Source: Asticcacaulis excentricus
GTDB taxonomy: Bacteria > Pseudomonadota > Alphaproteobacteria > Caulobacterales > Caulobacteraceae
DNA length: 64,000 nucleotides
Assembly (NCBI RefSeq): GCF_003966695.1
Contig: NZ_AP018827.1
Location: forward strand, 682,001 to 746,000
Direction: 5' to 3'
The translations under genes and the position numbers were made by a program. The notes beneath the pieces were generated by a model that worked only from the letters and a program-made list of their open reading frames with translations, ran no database searches and was not told the DNA's origin. Positions 1,465 to 50,228 of this stretch are shown piece after piece. How positions within the stretch are numbered: position 1 is the first letter of the stretch; each line of letters opens with the position of its first letter.

Positions 1465-3780
1465 TTACACCTTCGCGGCGCGCAAAATCCGCGCCTCATA
1501 GACATAAGCCCACTGATCGCGGTCAGCCTCGAAGCGCACCCGCACCTTGCTCTTGCCCGCCGTCAACGCCGGGGGCAGGAGGTAGGTGAGGATATTGCGC
1601 GCCACCGTCGCTTCGCCGGGCAGAGTCTCGGTCGCGAGCACCTGCCCTTCGACCAGCAGACGGAAGGATTTGTTGCGGTCGCGCCCGGCATAGGCGACCT
1701 GTAGCACCAGCGGCCCGTCGGTGATTTTCAGATCAAAAGCCAGATAGCCCTTTTGAATCAACCGCCCGCGTTCAGCGATATGGGTGATGGTTGCCGTATT
1801 GGGCGTGCCGTCAAAGGCGTGGTCGGTTTCCGGCTGCTGCTCACCCAGCCGAATGAAATCCACTGTTCGGGCGGCCATATCGGCGCGGTCCTTCGCCGCC
1901 TGACGCCATACGGCCTCTTCGCCAACCCATTCCGCGCTGCCGAAACGGCGGAAATAGACGGCGGTGCGGTTGCGGTGTTGCAGGAAGAAGGGGGTAAGGC
2001 TGAGGTCGCCCGGCTTGCCCCGCGTCCCCAGTCGATACTGATGCAAGCCCCCGGCGGCGACCAGTTGGGGCGCCGCCTCATCGGACACCAGCGCCGGATC
2101 GACGCCTTCCCACGGCTGATCCGACGGGCCAAGATCACCGGCCAGCACCAGCGGCCCGCTGAGGAAGGCGATCAGTTTGGCATCGTCCGGCATGGCTTCG
2201 ACGCGCAAAGGCATGGGCAGGCGCAACTCAACACGGTCGCCGCTTTTCAGCCCCGTAAGCCGCAGATAACCGCCCTGACGTACCCCCGCCGCCTTGCCGT
2301 TTACCCTCAGCACAGGGGCGTCGCACCAACCGGGTACGCGCAAATCGAGCGATTTGGGGGCCTTGCGCACCGTAATCACCATCTGATCGGACAGGGGGAA
2401 GGCAGTGTCCATCTCAAGCTGCGCTTCGGGCGCGTTGAGGGTCGAGGCGTAATAGAGGTTCACCGCCACGTCATCGCCGCGCTTCCAGTATATGCTTTCA
2501 CCATGCTTGGAATGGCTTTCCATGCCCGACCCGACGCAGCACCAGAAGTCGTTGGTCGGGTCCGAATGCACGCGCCCAAGCCCCGAAGCCAGTCCGGTGA
2601 AATAGGTGAACATGCCCGTTTGCGGGTCTTGCTGGCTCATGATGTGGTTGAGGTGGGCCCGCTCATAGAAGTCAAACAGGGCCGCATCGCCGCTCCAGCC
2701 ATAAAGATGCCGCGTCAGGCGCAGCATATTGTAGCTGTTGCAGGCCTCGCAGGTCTGCTGATCGAGACGGTTGGCCAGTTGCCGCGGCGCACCAAAATGT
2801 TCGTGGTCGGAATTGCCGCCGATGACGTAGGAGTGGTCGCGCGTCACGGTCTGCCAGAAAAAGCGCGCGATGCGCGCATCTTCGGCGTTTTGCGTCAGTT
2901 CATAAAGGCGGGCGGAGCCGACGATCTTAGGGATCTGCGTATTGGCGTGCTTTCCGGCCAGTTCGTCGCGCCCGGCGGCCAGCGGATCGACAATGGCGCG
3001 GTGACGCAGACGCTGCGACAGGGTGAGCCAGCGCGGATTCTGCGTTCGCGCATAGAGTTCGGCATAGGACTCGGTCAGGCCGCCATGTTCGGCGCGCAGG
3101 ATTTCCTGGATCTGCGCGTCGCTCAGGCCTTCGAGAATGGTCCCCAGATAGTCGCCCAGCCCCGTGGCGACGCTCAGGCCATCGGTCAATCCGGCGTGCT
3201 GATGCGCGTCGAGCGTCCCGGCAAACACCTTGTGATAGGTGTAAAGCGGCACCCAGCCGCCGTTCAGATCAAATCCGGAGGTGCGGATGTCGCCTTTACG
3301 CAGTTCCTCATAGATGATCTTGCCGTCCACTTCCTGACCGTTGCGACCCACGGTCGTGCCGCCCGCATAGCCGTCGCCGTGTTTGGCCTGAATGGTCTTC
3401 AGTTCGCTCAGCACATAGGCGGCGAGGTCACGAAATTCGGGTTTGCCCGTCTGCGCGTACATCAGCGATACGGCGGACAGGTAGTGGCCGAGGCTATGGC
3501 CCGCAATGCCGCGCGCTTCCCAGCCGCCATAGACCTGGCCCCTGGGTTCCATCCCGGCGCCTTTGCGGAAATTGTGCAGAAAGCGGTCAGGTGACAGCGA
3601 CAGAAGATAGCGCTGGTTGGCCTCGATGGAGGTCAGGAAGATCGACGGCTTAAGCCGCACCTGCGACAGCGGGAAGGGGGTCGCGGGTATAGCCTCAGGC
3701 GTCACGGCCCCGGCGGCGGTCGCGCCCACAGCCATCCCCAGTCCTGCGGCCGTTATGCCGCGTCGCGTCCATCCCTGCAT
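1465..3780 (-). CDS. GH127 (DUF1680) beta-L-arabinofuranosidase, Tat-exported
   Basis: This is a 771-residue GH127 family protein. The N-terminus has a twin-arginine signal (TRRGITAAGLGMAVGA), so it is probably exported folded to the periplasm. The core starts near residue 35 with PLSQVRLKPSIF. The zinc/nucleophile site known from HypBA1 is recognisable: QTCEACNSYN (E345, C347) and FWCCVGSG (C414, C415, one of them the nucleophile); E327 in SDHEHFG is the likely acid/base. The C-terminal about 150 residues form beta-rich domains seen in long members of the family. GH127 enzymes remove beta-L-arabinofuranose from plant glycans. A paralogue lies at 38486-40864. It diverges from the PL10 lyase gene, with a shared 161 bp control region. 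Confidence 0.9.
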   Translation of the reverse strand: MQGWTRRGITAAGLGMAVGATAAGAVTPEAIPATPFPLSQVRLKPSIFLTSIEANQRYLLSLSPDRFLHNFRKGAGMEPRGQVYGGWEARGIAGHSLGHYLSAVSLMYAQTGKPEFRDLAAYVLSELKTIQAKHGDGYAGGTTVGRNGQEVDGKIIYEELRKGDIRTSGFDLNGGWVPLYTYHKVFAGTLDAHQHAGLTDGLSVATGLGDYLGTILEGLSDAQIQEILRAEHGGLTESYAELYARTQNPRWLTLSQRLRHRAIVDPLAAGRDELAGKHANTQIPKIVGSARLYELTQNAEDARIARFFWQTVTRDHSYVIGGNSDHEHFGAPRQLANRLDQQTCEACNSYNMLRLTRHLYGWSGDAALFDFYERAHLNHIMSQQDPQTGMFTYFTGLASGLGRVHSDPTNDFWCCVGSGMESHSKHGESIYWKRGDDVAVNLYYASTLNAPEAQLEMDTAFPLSDQMVITVRKAPKSLDLRVPGWCDAPVLRVNGKAAGVRQGGYLRLTGLKSGDRVELRLPMPLRVEAMPDDAKLIAFLSGPLVLAGDLGPSDQPWEGVDPALVSDEAAPQLVAAGGLHQYRLGTRGKPGDLSLTPFFLQHRNRTAVYFRRFGSAEWVGEEAVWRQAAKDRADMAARTVDFIRLGEQQPETDHAFDGTPNTATITHIAERGRLIQKGYLAFDLKITDGPLVLQVAYAGRDRNKSFRLLVEGQVLATETLPGEATVARNILTYLLPPALTAGKSKVRVRFEADRDQWAYVYEARILRAAKV

Positions 3781-3804
3781 GACTCACTCCTGTTGTGTTT
3801 TCTT

Positions 3805-3816
3805 GGACTATAGTCC
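3805..3816. promoter_or_regulatory. Perfect 12-bp palindrome, candidate operator
   Basis: GGACTATAGTCC is a perfect palindrome 25 bp upstream of the GH127 start, in the divergent gap shared with the PL10 lyase. A similar core (GTCTATAGAC) appears in the ribokinase gap at 12327-12336. GntR-type regulators bind short palindromes of this kind, but the factor is unknown. Confidence 0.35.
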
Positions 3817-3941
3817 GTCATTTGTCTGAGTAAAATCAAGCTTGCACAGAGCGACGGATTCCGGCTTGCCACACGTTTGACACCGGTATCATATAGGCCC
3901 AACCAGAACAGACATAATTCTAATATCTCCGGGGAAATGCC

Positions 3942-47638: not shown

Positions 47639-48064
47639 ATGACCCCACTATGGAAATCGGGCACGGTCTTGATCGTGGTTTCGGCACTGCTGATGGCCTG
47701 TTCCGCACAACCCTCTCAGCCCGCGGCTGAAGAGGCGTCCCAAAGTGCCGTGAGCGAAACTCCGGTATCGGTCGTCTCGTCAAGCGCCTCTGCCTTTGAT
47801 TATGCCGGACGCTGGACGGGCGTGGAGGGCACCTACATGACCATTACGCCGCAAGCGGACAAGGCTTATCAGGTGGTGATTGCCGATCTCGACGGGCCCA
47901 AAACCTATGCGGGGACGCTGCAAGCCGACGGTCTGCATATTGAACGCAATGGCACGCCGCTGGTCATCGTGCCCGGAGACGGCGAGGCGACCGGCATGAA
48001 ATGGCTGGCGGAAAAGTCCGGCTGTCTGATCGTGGCGGCCAACGAAGGCTATTGCCGCGATTAG
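47639..48064 (+). CDS. Small lipoprotein of unknown function
   Basis: 141 residues from ATG 47639, with GGAG about 9 nt ahead. The N-terminus is a lipoprotein signal with lipobox LMAC (C20 or so), followed by a Ser/Ala/Glu-rich linker and a small beta-rich domain (FDYAGRWTGVEGTYMTITPQ...YQVVIADLDGPKTYAGTL). The GRWTGVEGTYMTI pattern is common in small periplasmic beta-barrel lipoproteins, but I cannot name the family. Its TAG stop is the first triplet of a 124-bp dispersed repeat. Confidence 0.8.
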   Translation: MTPLWKSGTVLIVVSALLMACSAQPSQPAAEEASQSAVSETPVSVVSSSASAFDYAGRWTGVEGTYMTITPQADKAYQVVIADLDGPKTYAGTLQADGLHIERNGTPLVIVPGDGEATGMKWLAEKSGCLIVAANEGYCRD

Positions 48065-48185
48065 AGCGAAATGACTTTGAGTGGAATCGTCATTTCTCTC
48101 TAAATTTTTGTTTTGTCGCGATGTTTTTGCGGAAAACCGCTCACACTTTTGGCTTCGCCGAAATCCGTTTCCGCACATCGCTCTA
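48062..48185 (+). repeat. 124-bp dispersed palindromic repeat, family A copy 1
   Basis: Begins TAGAGCG and ends CGCTCTA. It shares TTTTGTTTTGTC, GAAAACCG and CTTTTGGCTTCGCCGAA in the same order and spacing with the reverse complement of 58477-58600. The first TAG is the stop codon of the lipoprotein gene. Confidence 0.85.
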
Positions 48186-48223
48186 AAAAAACCGGCTCCG
48201 TTTCCGGGGCCGGTCTCTTTTTT
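48185..48223. terminator. Bidirectional terminator
   Basis: ACCGGCTCC and GGGGCCGGT form a stem around a short loop. An A-run (48186-48191) lies on the left and CTCTTTTTT on the right, so it can serve both the lipoprotein gene and the convergent receiver gene. Confidence 0.8.
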
Positions 48224-48240: not shown

Positions 48241-49008
48241 TTAAGAAGCCATCAGCTTGATAGCCGTGTTGATCAGCTCGACCGGGCGGAACGGCTTCTG
48301 AATTTCAGCATCGGCCCCGGCGGCCATGGCGGCCGACGTGGCGCGGTCCGAGCTGACGCGCGCATCCAGACCCGCCGACATGGCGAGAATTCGCACATTG
48401 GGCCAGGTCGATTTGATCACACGAATGCCCTGAAGCCCGCCCATGCCCGGCATGAAGATGTCCGAGACGATCAGATCGACGTGGGCGATGTCTTCGTTGT
48501 CCAGCGCCTCTTCCATGCTGTGAGCGATGGACACCCGATAGCCGTTATCCGAGAGGGTTTGCGCGGTCAGCGTCGCCACCGTATGGCTGTCGTCAATGAC
48601 CAGAGCGTGCTTGCGCTTGCGGCCCTCAGAGGCGTCGGCCTGCGCCGACTCCACGATGGCGCGCATCTGCTGCCGCGAAAAGGGCTTACGCAGGACGTAA
48701 TCGACATTGGTGCTGCGCGCCAGTTTCAGCGTGCTGTCCACCGAAGCGTCGCGTGACCCGGCGGTCATGATGGCGATGGTGGCGTCCAGCGCGCGGTCGC
48801 GGATTTGCGTAATGTGGTCAAGGCTATTGTCTTCGCCCAGAAACACATCGACGAAAATCAGGTTCGGCCGTTGCTGCAACAGCACGTCATGACATTCGGC
48901 CAGGGAGCGCGCGACCACATAGTCCCAGTCTTCGTCCTTGAGCATCCGCCCGACGATATTTGCCTGGGTCATGCTGTCTTCGATAACCAGCGCCAGTCCT
49001 TCAGCCAT
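48241..49008 (-). CDS. Double-receiver response regulator
   Basis: 255 residues from ATG 49008, with GAGG about 6 nt ahead. Two CheY-like domains in tandem: the first (about 1-118) has VIEDS, LIFVDVF with an acceptor Asp, and RKPF; the second (about 133-255) has VIDDS, LIVSDIFMPGMGG with an acceptor Asp, and QKPF. There is no DNA-binding or enzymatic output domain. Two-receiver proteins act as phosphate sinks or relay integrators. It is next to the flagellin gene, so motility or cell-cycle signalling is a guess. Confidence 0.88.
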   Translation of the reverse strand: MAEGLALVIEDSMTQANIVGRMLKDEDWDYVVARSLAECHDVLLQQRPNLIFVDVFLGEDNSLDHITQIRDRALDATIAIMTAGSRDASVDSTLKLARSTNVDYVLRKPFSRQQMRAIVESAQADASEGRKRKHALVIDDSHTVATLTAQTLSDNGYRVSIAHSMEEALDNEDIAHVDLIVSDIFMPGMGGLQGIRVIKSTWPNVRILAMSAGLDARVSSDRATSAAMAAGADAEIQKPFRPVELINTAIKLMAS

Positions 49009-49130
49009 TCTTGCCTCGTTTGAGATGAGCCGCACAGGGTGCGAACAGGGAATGGCATACCCAATACAATGTTATTCTTAATAATTCCCCCTGTGGAGCC
49101 TTCTGTGGAGCTTTTGGGCCTTATCCGGGC

Positions 49131-49217
49131 AAAAAAAAAAGCCGCGCGAAACCGCACGGCCTTAAGGTCAATACAGGGAGGAAAGCCCCGAAGGGCGACG
49201 GTGCAGGACACCGCGTT
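49131..49217 (-). ncRNA. Candidate small regulatory RNA with anti-Shine-Dalgarno motif
   Basis: Read on the minus strand from about 49217: hairpin CGGTG-TCCTG-CACCG, then GCCC-TTCG-GGGC (a UUCG tetraloop), then an unpaired TTTCCTCCCTG, and finally a GC stem (GCCGTGCG-GTTT-CGCGCGGC) followed by ten T. The TCCTCCC stretch can pair with ribosome-binding sites, as in several alphaproteobacterial trans-acting sRNAs. There is no open frame of note. A matching promoter lies immediately upstream. About 87 nt long. Confidence 0.65.
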
Positions 49218-49222
49218 CTCTT

Positions 49223-49251
49223 GTCGTACAATTGGCGGAACAAACATTCAA
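49223..49251 (-). promoter_or_regulatory. Promoter of the candidate small RNA
   Basis: On the minus strand TTGAAT (-35, 49246-49251) and TACGAC (-10, 49223-49228) are separated by exactly 17 bp, placing the transcription start near 49217. Confidence 0.55.
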
Positions 49252-49303
49252 GGGTAAAATTACTTTTCAAAATTAAAAAACAGGATTCTTTTTTTGCGCG
49301 CCA

Positions 49304-49318
49304 TTAAACCGAAGTTAA
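49304..49318. promoter_or_regulatory. CtrA binding box upstream of flagellin
   Basis: TTAA-ACCGAAG-TTAA matches the Caulobacter CtrA full site TTAA-N7-TTAA exactly. It lies 83 bp ahead of the flagellin start and about 55 bp upstream of the small-RNA promoter. The rest of the 392-bp gap (49009-49400) holds the small RNA. Confidence 0.65.
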
Positions 49319-49400
49319 ACGCGATCGGATAGCATGGTTATTGAGCGAAGCTCCCGTTCGACAAAAGACGACCGGCCACAGGGTAGGGGACACACGAAGC

Positions 49401-50228
49401 GTGAACTCCATCAACACCAATGTCGGGGCCATGCAGGCCCTGCAAATGCTGAACGCGACCTCGAAAGAGCTGAACGCGACGCAGGCGCGTATTTCCTCCG
49501 GCCTGAAAATCGCCAGCGCCAAGGACGATGCGTCGGGCTGGGTCATGGCACAGGGTCAGAGGGCCCAGATACGCGCGCTGGATGCGGTCAAGGAATCTTT
49601 GTCCCGCAATGGCTCGGTAGTGGATGTGGCCATGACCGCCGGCGAGAGTATTTCTGACCTTTTGATGGAGCTGAAAGAAAAGGCGCTGGCCGCCTCTGAT
49701 CCGTCGCTGAACACCACGGCCCGACGCGCGCTGAATGACGATTTCGTCGCCATCCGCAACCAGATTGCTCAGTCGATCCGCAACGCCACGTTTAACGGGG
49801 TCAACCTGCTGAACGGATCGCGCACCTCGATTGCGGCTCTGGCCAATGCCGATGGCAGTGACACCCTGACGGTCATGGCGCAAAACCTGTCTCTGGGCGG
49901 CAGCATCCTGACCTTAAGCAGCGGAGCGGGTTTTGCCAGCGCTATGTCGGCGCAGGGACTGATCGCTACGCTGGACAGCTCGATCAGCAATATCTCCGTG
50001 GCGATGGCGCGTCTGGGGGCATCCTCCAGAGCGCTGGACCGCCACACGACCTTTATCGGCAAGTTGCAGGATACGCTTGAGGTCAATGTCGGCCGACTGG
50101 TCGATGCCGACATGGCCAAGGAGAGCAGTAAACTTCAGGCGCTTCAGCTCAAGCAGCAACTGGCAATCCAGACCCTGAGCGTCGCCAACCGCTCACAATC
50201 CTTTTTGCTGCAACTGTTTGGGCGATAG
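49401..50228 (+). CDS. Flagellin
   Basis: 275 residues from GTG 49401, so that the product begins with the usual SINTNVGAMQALQMLN; upstream in-frame codons would add 20 residues unlike any flagellin. The N-terminal D0/D1 helices (to about 140, with AQARISSGLKIASAKDDASGWVMAQ) and C-terminal D1/D0 helices (about 215-275, ending SVANRSQSFLLQLFGR) are present, with a short variable centre. The size equals Caulobacter flagellins, which lack D2/D3. It is exported by the flagellar apparatus. A CtrA box lies upstream, in keeping with cell-cycle control. No other flagellar genes are in the window. Confidence 0.92.
   Translation: MNSINTNVGAMQALQMLNATSKELNATQARISSGLKIASAKDDASGWVMAQGQRAQIRALDAVKESLSRNGSVVDVAMTAGESISDLLMELKEKALAASDPSLNTTARRALNDDFVAIRNQIAQSIRNATFNGVNLLNGSRTSIAALANADGSDTLTVMAQNLSLGGSILTLSSGAGFASAMSAQGLIATLDSSISNISVAMARLGASSRALDRHTTFIGKLQDTLEVNVGRLVDADMAKESSKLQALQLKQQLAIQTLSVANRSQSFLLQLFGR

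Follow-up and report, generated by a model that had tools for sequence, protein, structure and literature searches.

Introduction

A 2005 survey (PMC1273637) already regarded the suhB element as probably a noncoding RNA that has a promoter and a terminator of its own and occurs in multiple copies, four of them in Caulobacter. The SisA-D RNAs of Caulobacter crescentus have three features in common, namely a hairpin, a terminator and, in single-stranded form, UUUCCUCCCU (PMC12559287); many mRNAs are repressed by SisA through this UUUCCUCCCU seed, with which CrfA, a sponge RNA, pairs as well. The evidence for SisA-D in that organism came from Hfq RIL-seq, Northern blots, structure probing and reporters (PMC12559287), and all four RNAs (i.e., R0014, R0133, R0143 and R0157) are Hfq-enriched according to Table 1 of PMC11005374. 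The three Caulobacter copies other than SisA lie at locations different from the N-formylglutamate amidohydrolase gene (PMC12559287). Several sibling alphaR8 RNAs are present per genome in Caulobacterales, and whether these siblings are redundant or act separately was an issue left open in PMC12559287.

Here we describe an element located beside a flagellin gene in the window (i.e., the whole stretch of 64,000 nucleotides of Asticcacaulis excentricus DNA that was analysed). Like SisA-D (PMC12559287), the flagellin-side RNA carries the UUUCCUCCCU core after a hairpin, ends in a terminator and belongs to a set of four copies per genome, and, as with SisA, one Asticcacaulis sibling (C1:122191-122266) adjoins an N-formylglutamate amidohydrolase gene; unlike SisA, the present copy sits between flagellin and response-regulator genes, and its expression and targets are putative. 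With MmgR of Sinorhizobium meliloti (PMC7143759) it shares the RF00519 family, the size class (77 nt for MmgR) and an anti-Shine-Dalgarno motif, whereas MmgR is a sole copy linked to polyhydroxybutyrate and nitrogen status. AbcR1 and AbcR2 (alphar15; PMC7143759) also have CU-rich anti-Shine-Dalgarno motifs, and AbcR is Hfq-bound, but these RNAs are 120 and 114 nt in length and are marked by two unpaired motifs of this kind, as opposed to one in the flagellin-side RNA, which matches RF00519.

The flagellin-side element is an extra copy of the known alphaR8 sRNA family, of which the copy and its genomic address are new and the kind of RNA is known. An alphaR8 copy beside flagellin seems to be undescribed in the literature searched, which lay mostly outside subscription journals; this search returned nothing on an Asticcacaulis sRNA together with flagellin and, by title among the papers listed, no link of mmgR or alphaR8 with the flagellum or flagellin, and neither "flagell" nor "fljK" occurs in the main text of PMC12559287. 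We consider it about 90% probable that the element is a paralogous alphaR8 (suhB/mmgR/SisA-D) gene for an Hfq-dependent base-pairing sRNA that blocks ribosome sites via its seed. The gene would have a promoter and a terminator of its own and yield an RNA of approximately 85 nt, in which UUUCCUCCCU would be displayed with a tight hairpin on one side and the terminator on the other. With help from Hfq, this seed would pair to G/A-rich ribosome-binding sites of several mRNAs and so block their translation, and the three siblings that share the seed would act alongside it. We infer transcription, Hfq binding, repression and targets of the flagellin-side RNA, and by analogy with SisA it most likely represses mRNAs through the seed.

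Identification of the flagellin-side RNA

The following features were located on the minus strand of the window.

49131..49216 (-): flagellin-side RNA of the alphaR8 (suhB/mmgR) family, approximately 85 nt, from RF00519 match, fold and compensatory pairs; 5' end putative
49198..49214 (-): 5' hairpin of the predicted fold; changes on both sides in 1/7 pairs (six loci) and 7/7 pairs (51-sequence alignment)
49185..49196 (-): GCCC-UUCG-GGGC hairpin of the predicted fold, 5' of the core; 100% of cells paired in both alignments
49175..49184 (-): UUUCCUCCCU core, the seed through which the family pairs with mRNAs and sponges, identical to the alphaR8 10-mer in PMC12559287
49131..49163 (-): Rho-independent terminator with an 11-bp stem and U tail, from terminator scan and fold; hairpin at 49163-49138
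49223..49251 (-): putative promoter read from the sequence, TTGAAT (49251-49246), 17-base spacer, TACGAC (49228-49223)

A scan of the 64-kb window with 4227 Rfam families gave a sole match at curated thresholds, RF00519 (suhB, "Makes More Granules Regulator RNA (mmgR)"), at 49124-49203 on the minus strand, with a score of 46.2 bits against a gathering threshold of 41. The hallmarks of alphaR8 were evident in the flagellin-side RNA as a hairpin directly 5' of the core and a Rho-independent terminator, the stem of which leads into ten T (49140-49131). An N-formylglutamate amidohydrolase gene, usual beside the main alphaR8 copy and non-defining for paralogues, was absent from its neighbours. An hfq gene was found in the same genome.

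The fold of the 85-nt RNA (49216-49132) had a predicted energy of -35.2 kcal/mol compared with a mean of -24.4 for shuffled sequences (z -3.77), and none of 200 shuffles was as stable. In this fold the core at 49184-49175 is single-stranded, TTTCCTCCCTG lies within the unpaired stretch 49184-49164, and the unpaired segment between the UUCG hairpin and the terminator reads UUUCCUCCCUG.

The sequence features named by the original prediction were confirmed as real. All parts of the TTGAAT-N17-TACGAC promoter that it had proposed were read at 49251-49223, the TCCTCCC motif that it had called exposed sits in the unpaired stretch of the predicted fold, and its regulatory RNA of about 87 nt corresponds to an RNA of trans-acting type, about 85 nt long, whose anti-Shine-Dalgarno core is exposed and whose RF00519 score is above threshold. 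From its proposal of three hairpins and a terminator, the UUCG loop and the terminator were recovered while a separate fourth hairpin was not, the terminator being the third.

The two promoter elements hold 4/6 and 3/6 consensus bases, and this putative promoter scored below the threshold of a simple sigma-70 scan, which did not list it. ATTCAA (TTGAAT reversed) and TACAA (TTGTA reversed) were invariant in 6/6 aligned loci, and promoter identity dropped to 39% in G015, the most distant of the loci. The sequence places the probable start of transcription at approximately 49217-49215.

Conservation of structure

Compensatory changes, the absence of which the original prediction had named as grounds for its rejection, were noted in two alignments. 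In a plain sequence alignment of the six closest loci, changes on both sides were seen in 3/22 pairs, a count reached by 2/500 shuffles; in an alignment of 51 copies (50 distinct), which was fitted to the structure and hence leans towards it, such changes were seen in 20/22 pairs and 0/500 shuffles reached this count. The latter set comprised 51 matches, one from each of 51 sources chosen against repeats of one copy. The core UUUCCUCCCU was invariant in all six aligned flagellin-side loci. Identity of the RNA body in five comparisons was 98, 94, 91, 85 and 71%, compared with 90, 78, 57, 48 and 56% for the spacer at 49251-49300.

These results bear on two other accounts of the element. A sequence relic, i.e., a duplicate that is silent or out of use, would fit the lowest score among the four copies of the genome and the weak promoter match, but is improbable given the invariant core, the compensatory changes among the six loci and the stronger conservation of the RNA body than of the spacer in 5/5 comparisons. 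A small protein gene is suggested by a mechanical open reading frame of 92 codons that spans 48969-49247 on the minus strand; the chance that this frame accounts for the element is practically negligible, as close relatives differ by a single-base gap within the aligned RNA region, which puts their reading frames out of register but leaves the RNA helices in place. Against the alphaR8 sRNA reading itself stand the same two points, weakest copy and poor promoter match, together with the low promoter identity in G015.

Copies in the genome and in relatives

Four copies of RF00519 scored over threshold in the genome (3.79 Mb, 3 contigs), of which the flagellin-side copy was the weakest, the others scoring 66.1, 61.4 and 54.2 bits. 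Apart from the sibling at the amidohydrolase gene, one lies between FeoB and permease genes and one between pectinesterase-like and IclR-type regulator genes. At least one copy over threshold was present in 56 of 61 genomes (i.e., this genome and 60 relatives).

The exact 10-mer core is common to the flagellin-side RNA and its three siblings. Its complement AGGGAGGAAA occurs at 5 places genome-wide, 4 of them in the four alphaR8 genes, while a reversed control pattern occurs at 0. The remaining place, which has a minus-strand reading frame on either side (one of them judged DsbA-like by eye), was considered as a perfect sponge for the core and rejected, for on that strand the sequence is the core itself and not its complement.

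The second hairpin is GCCC-UUCG-GGGC in the flagellin-side copy as opposed to GCCCUUCCUGGGC in the three siblings of the same genome. The 4-base loop was dismissed as a peculiarity of the flagellin-side copy, since a pattern scan found at least 119 matching stretches, in many alphaproteobacteria and a few other bacteria. In a tree of the 51 copies, which at approximately 100 columns is too short to settle grouping, the flagellin-side copy clustered with those of G001, G023 and G010, while those of G019 and G015 fell outside. Common descent of the six flagellin-side loci is argued from their shared flanks.

Elsewhere in the genome, at about 1501-1573 of stretch L005 (G000:C1:2326417-2326489), a suhB-like match was noted that scored below threshold (30.1 bits) and has TTTCTCCCTG where the core would be. 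Inverted repeats near this match resemble, by eye, those beside the sibling in stretch L001.

The flagellin-side address across the genus

Upstream of the RNA, the divergent flagellin gene and its control region comprise the following features.

49304..49318 (+): TTAA-N7-TTAA, a CtrA-type box that probably belongs to the flagellin promoter; in 5/5 loci with an intact flagellin gene, missing in G010
49378..49390 (+): ACAGGGTAGGGGA in the flagellin leader, a potential pairing partner of the core (predicted seed duplex -17.5 kcal/mol)
49401..50228 (+): flagellin gene, divergent from the RNA and a possible target of it; GTG start at 49401-49403, Pfam domains Flagellin_N and Flagellin_C at 49404-50225

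A search with the 321-bp stretch from the RNA to the flagellin start located the flagellin-side address in 6 of 25 genus genomes, with a near-complete match in five (its own genome G000, G001, G023, G010 and G019) and a match in two pieces in G015; in the other 19, only pieces of the RNA part were found among the matches listed. The covariance search of relatives called for by the original prediction gave RF00519 scores over cut-off at 5/5 related flagellin-side loci. Neither CCTCCCT nor TTTCCTCC was present on either strand in any of 11 stretches upstream of flagellin genes elsewhere, which comprised 655-733 nt at ten flagellin genes of other genus members (approximately two thirds identical) and 72 nt, up to a contig end, in one other genus of the family.

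In G010, tblastn found no flagellin at the locus, where the flanking genes on both sides are in place. A remnant of approximately 100 bp of the flagellin 5' end is present, in which GTG has become GGG and a stop codon interrupts the frame, and the RNA is kept, with a body 91% identical to the copy in the window and a score of 46.8 bits. Since flagellin was lost and the RNA kept, the RNA stands on its own; the sequence of this one genome is the best evidence that it is independent of the flagellin gene. The tie of the RNA to flagellin and CtrA implied by the original prediction does not hold in G010, which keeps the RNA and has neither of the others. At approximately 3250-3835 of stretch L070 (G010), flagellin has given way to unrelated DNA that follows the decayed remnant and is, by eye, like a fragment of an insertion sequence.

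The arrangement also departs from the original prediction, in which the RNA lay opposite the flagellin leader: the RNA is upstream and divergent, with the box at 49304-49318 and the GTG start of flagellin at 49401. If flagellin transcription begins past the CtrA-type box, the two transcripts would not overlap as those of a cis-antisense pair would. We take TTAA-N7-TTAA to be the CtrA box consensus. The divergent box that had been placed near the RNA promoter lies approximately 53 bp upstream of the -35, and in relatives it tracks flagellin and not the RNA; because all five loci with flagellin have the box and it is broken in G010, it probably serves flagellin. CtrA control of the flagellin-side RNA found no support, as G010 retains the RNA but not the full box.

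In G015 the RNA and flagellin are found together elsewhere, on C2, beside a TonB receptor gene. This location counts against a cis-acting leader of the downstream response-regulator gene (48241-49005, minus strand), with the terminator as an attenuator, as the response regulator was not matched in the G015 stretch (L072). Such a leader would agree with the position of this gene, on the same strand and approximately 125 bp away, and with the identity of 99.2-99.6% of its receiver-domain protein in the four related loci that hold it; the family structure, including its own terminator, is nevertheless common to copies with other neighbours, and a cis-acting role is very improbable.

Pairing with the flagellin leader

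The preferred reading, a base-pairing sRNA with several targets, is compatible with a narrower one in which the RNA is a dedicated regulator of the adjacent flagellin, blocking the ribosome site ACAGGGTAGGGGA and so tying filament synthesis to the signal of the RNA. Duplex predictions gave some encouragement to this idea. The duplex of core and ACAGGGTAGGGGA comprises 12 bp, including a single bulge, plus a short extension, and the seed-leader duplex in the other four loci with intact flagellin ranged from -15.6 to -17.6. Cofolding with the whole RNA gave 21 bp over 49378-49403, which spans the ribosome site and start codon and opens the UUCG hairpin. The other three flagellin genes of the genome paired more weakly with the seed (-13.0, -8.8 and -12.5) and with the whole RNA (-7.1, -3.9 and -7.0, compared with -11.1 for the adjacent flagellin), where flagellin windows lay 3 nt downstream of the GTG in seed computations and at the GTG in whole-RNA pairing. 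When the earliest starts of 288 other predicted genes were used, 12 (seed) and 28 (whole RNA) paired as well as or better than flagellin, ranks that are rough because starts came from a crude ORF picker.

Controls pointed the other way. With best starts, 47/288 (seed) and 104/288 (whole RNA) of these genes paired as well as flagellin, and dinucleotide-shuffled leaders were as strong in 249/2000 (seed) and 195/500 (whole RNA) cases. At the four other flagellin loci, 163, 159, 39 and 264 of 300 shuffles were as strong (whole RNA). The three siblings paired about equally with the flagellin leader (seed, -16.8, -16.5 and -20.2; whole RNA, -11.0, -11.6 and -13.0), and 4 of 10 genus flagellin leaders from genomes without a linked RNA reached -17.7 to -19.3 in slightly longer windows. 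Moreover, the RNA persists in G010 without flagellin, and the leader of G015 is without the CAGGG half of the site. Given the shuffle controls, gene ranks, and pairing by siblings and of unlinked leaders, the adjacent flagellin is kept as a possible target, one candidate among many suggested by sequence, and dedicated regulation is doubtful.

Further signs of a special relation were considered and rejected. The 21-bp pairing of the whole RNA at the flagellin start was no stronger than that of shuffled leaders (the above 195/500), and flagellin-specific co-adaptation of the post-core CCCUGUAUUGA was discounted, its first part, CCCUGUA, being common to the three siblings. In G010 and G019, both RNA and mRNA had changed in the post-core region and pairing was not restored. 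An 11-base match, TCAATACAGGG, occurs in another flagellin gene, carried by the second replicon; it lies approximately 90-100 nt into that gene, within the stretch for a conserved protein motif.

A bolder proposal, on which we place distinctly long odds, is that an alphaR8 paralogue in one Asticcacaulis group was recruited beside a CtrA-controlled flagellin and represses that flagellin, among other mRNAs, at the ribosome site; the whole-RNA shuffle control weakens both this and dedicated regulation. If recruitment did occur, one flagellin subunit would come under the influence of carbon or starvation signals, and a CrfA-like sponge might serve as the off switch. The flagellin-side copy, with its readable history (left behind after flagellin loss in one genome), offers a testable case for siblings gaining separate jobs.

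Neighbouring sequences

In the four related loci that hold the highly conserved response-regulator protein, which carries receiver domains, flagellin was identical in two, 79% identical in one and lost in one. In G015, an open reading frame with Cas9-like HNH and RuvC_III domains (L072:4317-5711, minus strand) adjoins the flagellin/alphaR8 pair. In the window, 48063-48186 (extent by eye) is a copy of a dispersed repeat; the genome holds 41 occurrences of its 21-base core, AAAAGTGTGAGCGGTTTTCCG, when at most one mismatch is allowed, compared with 0 for a reversed control.
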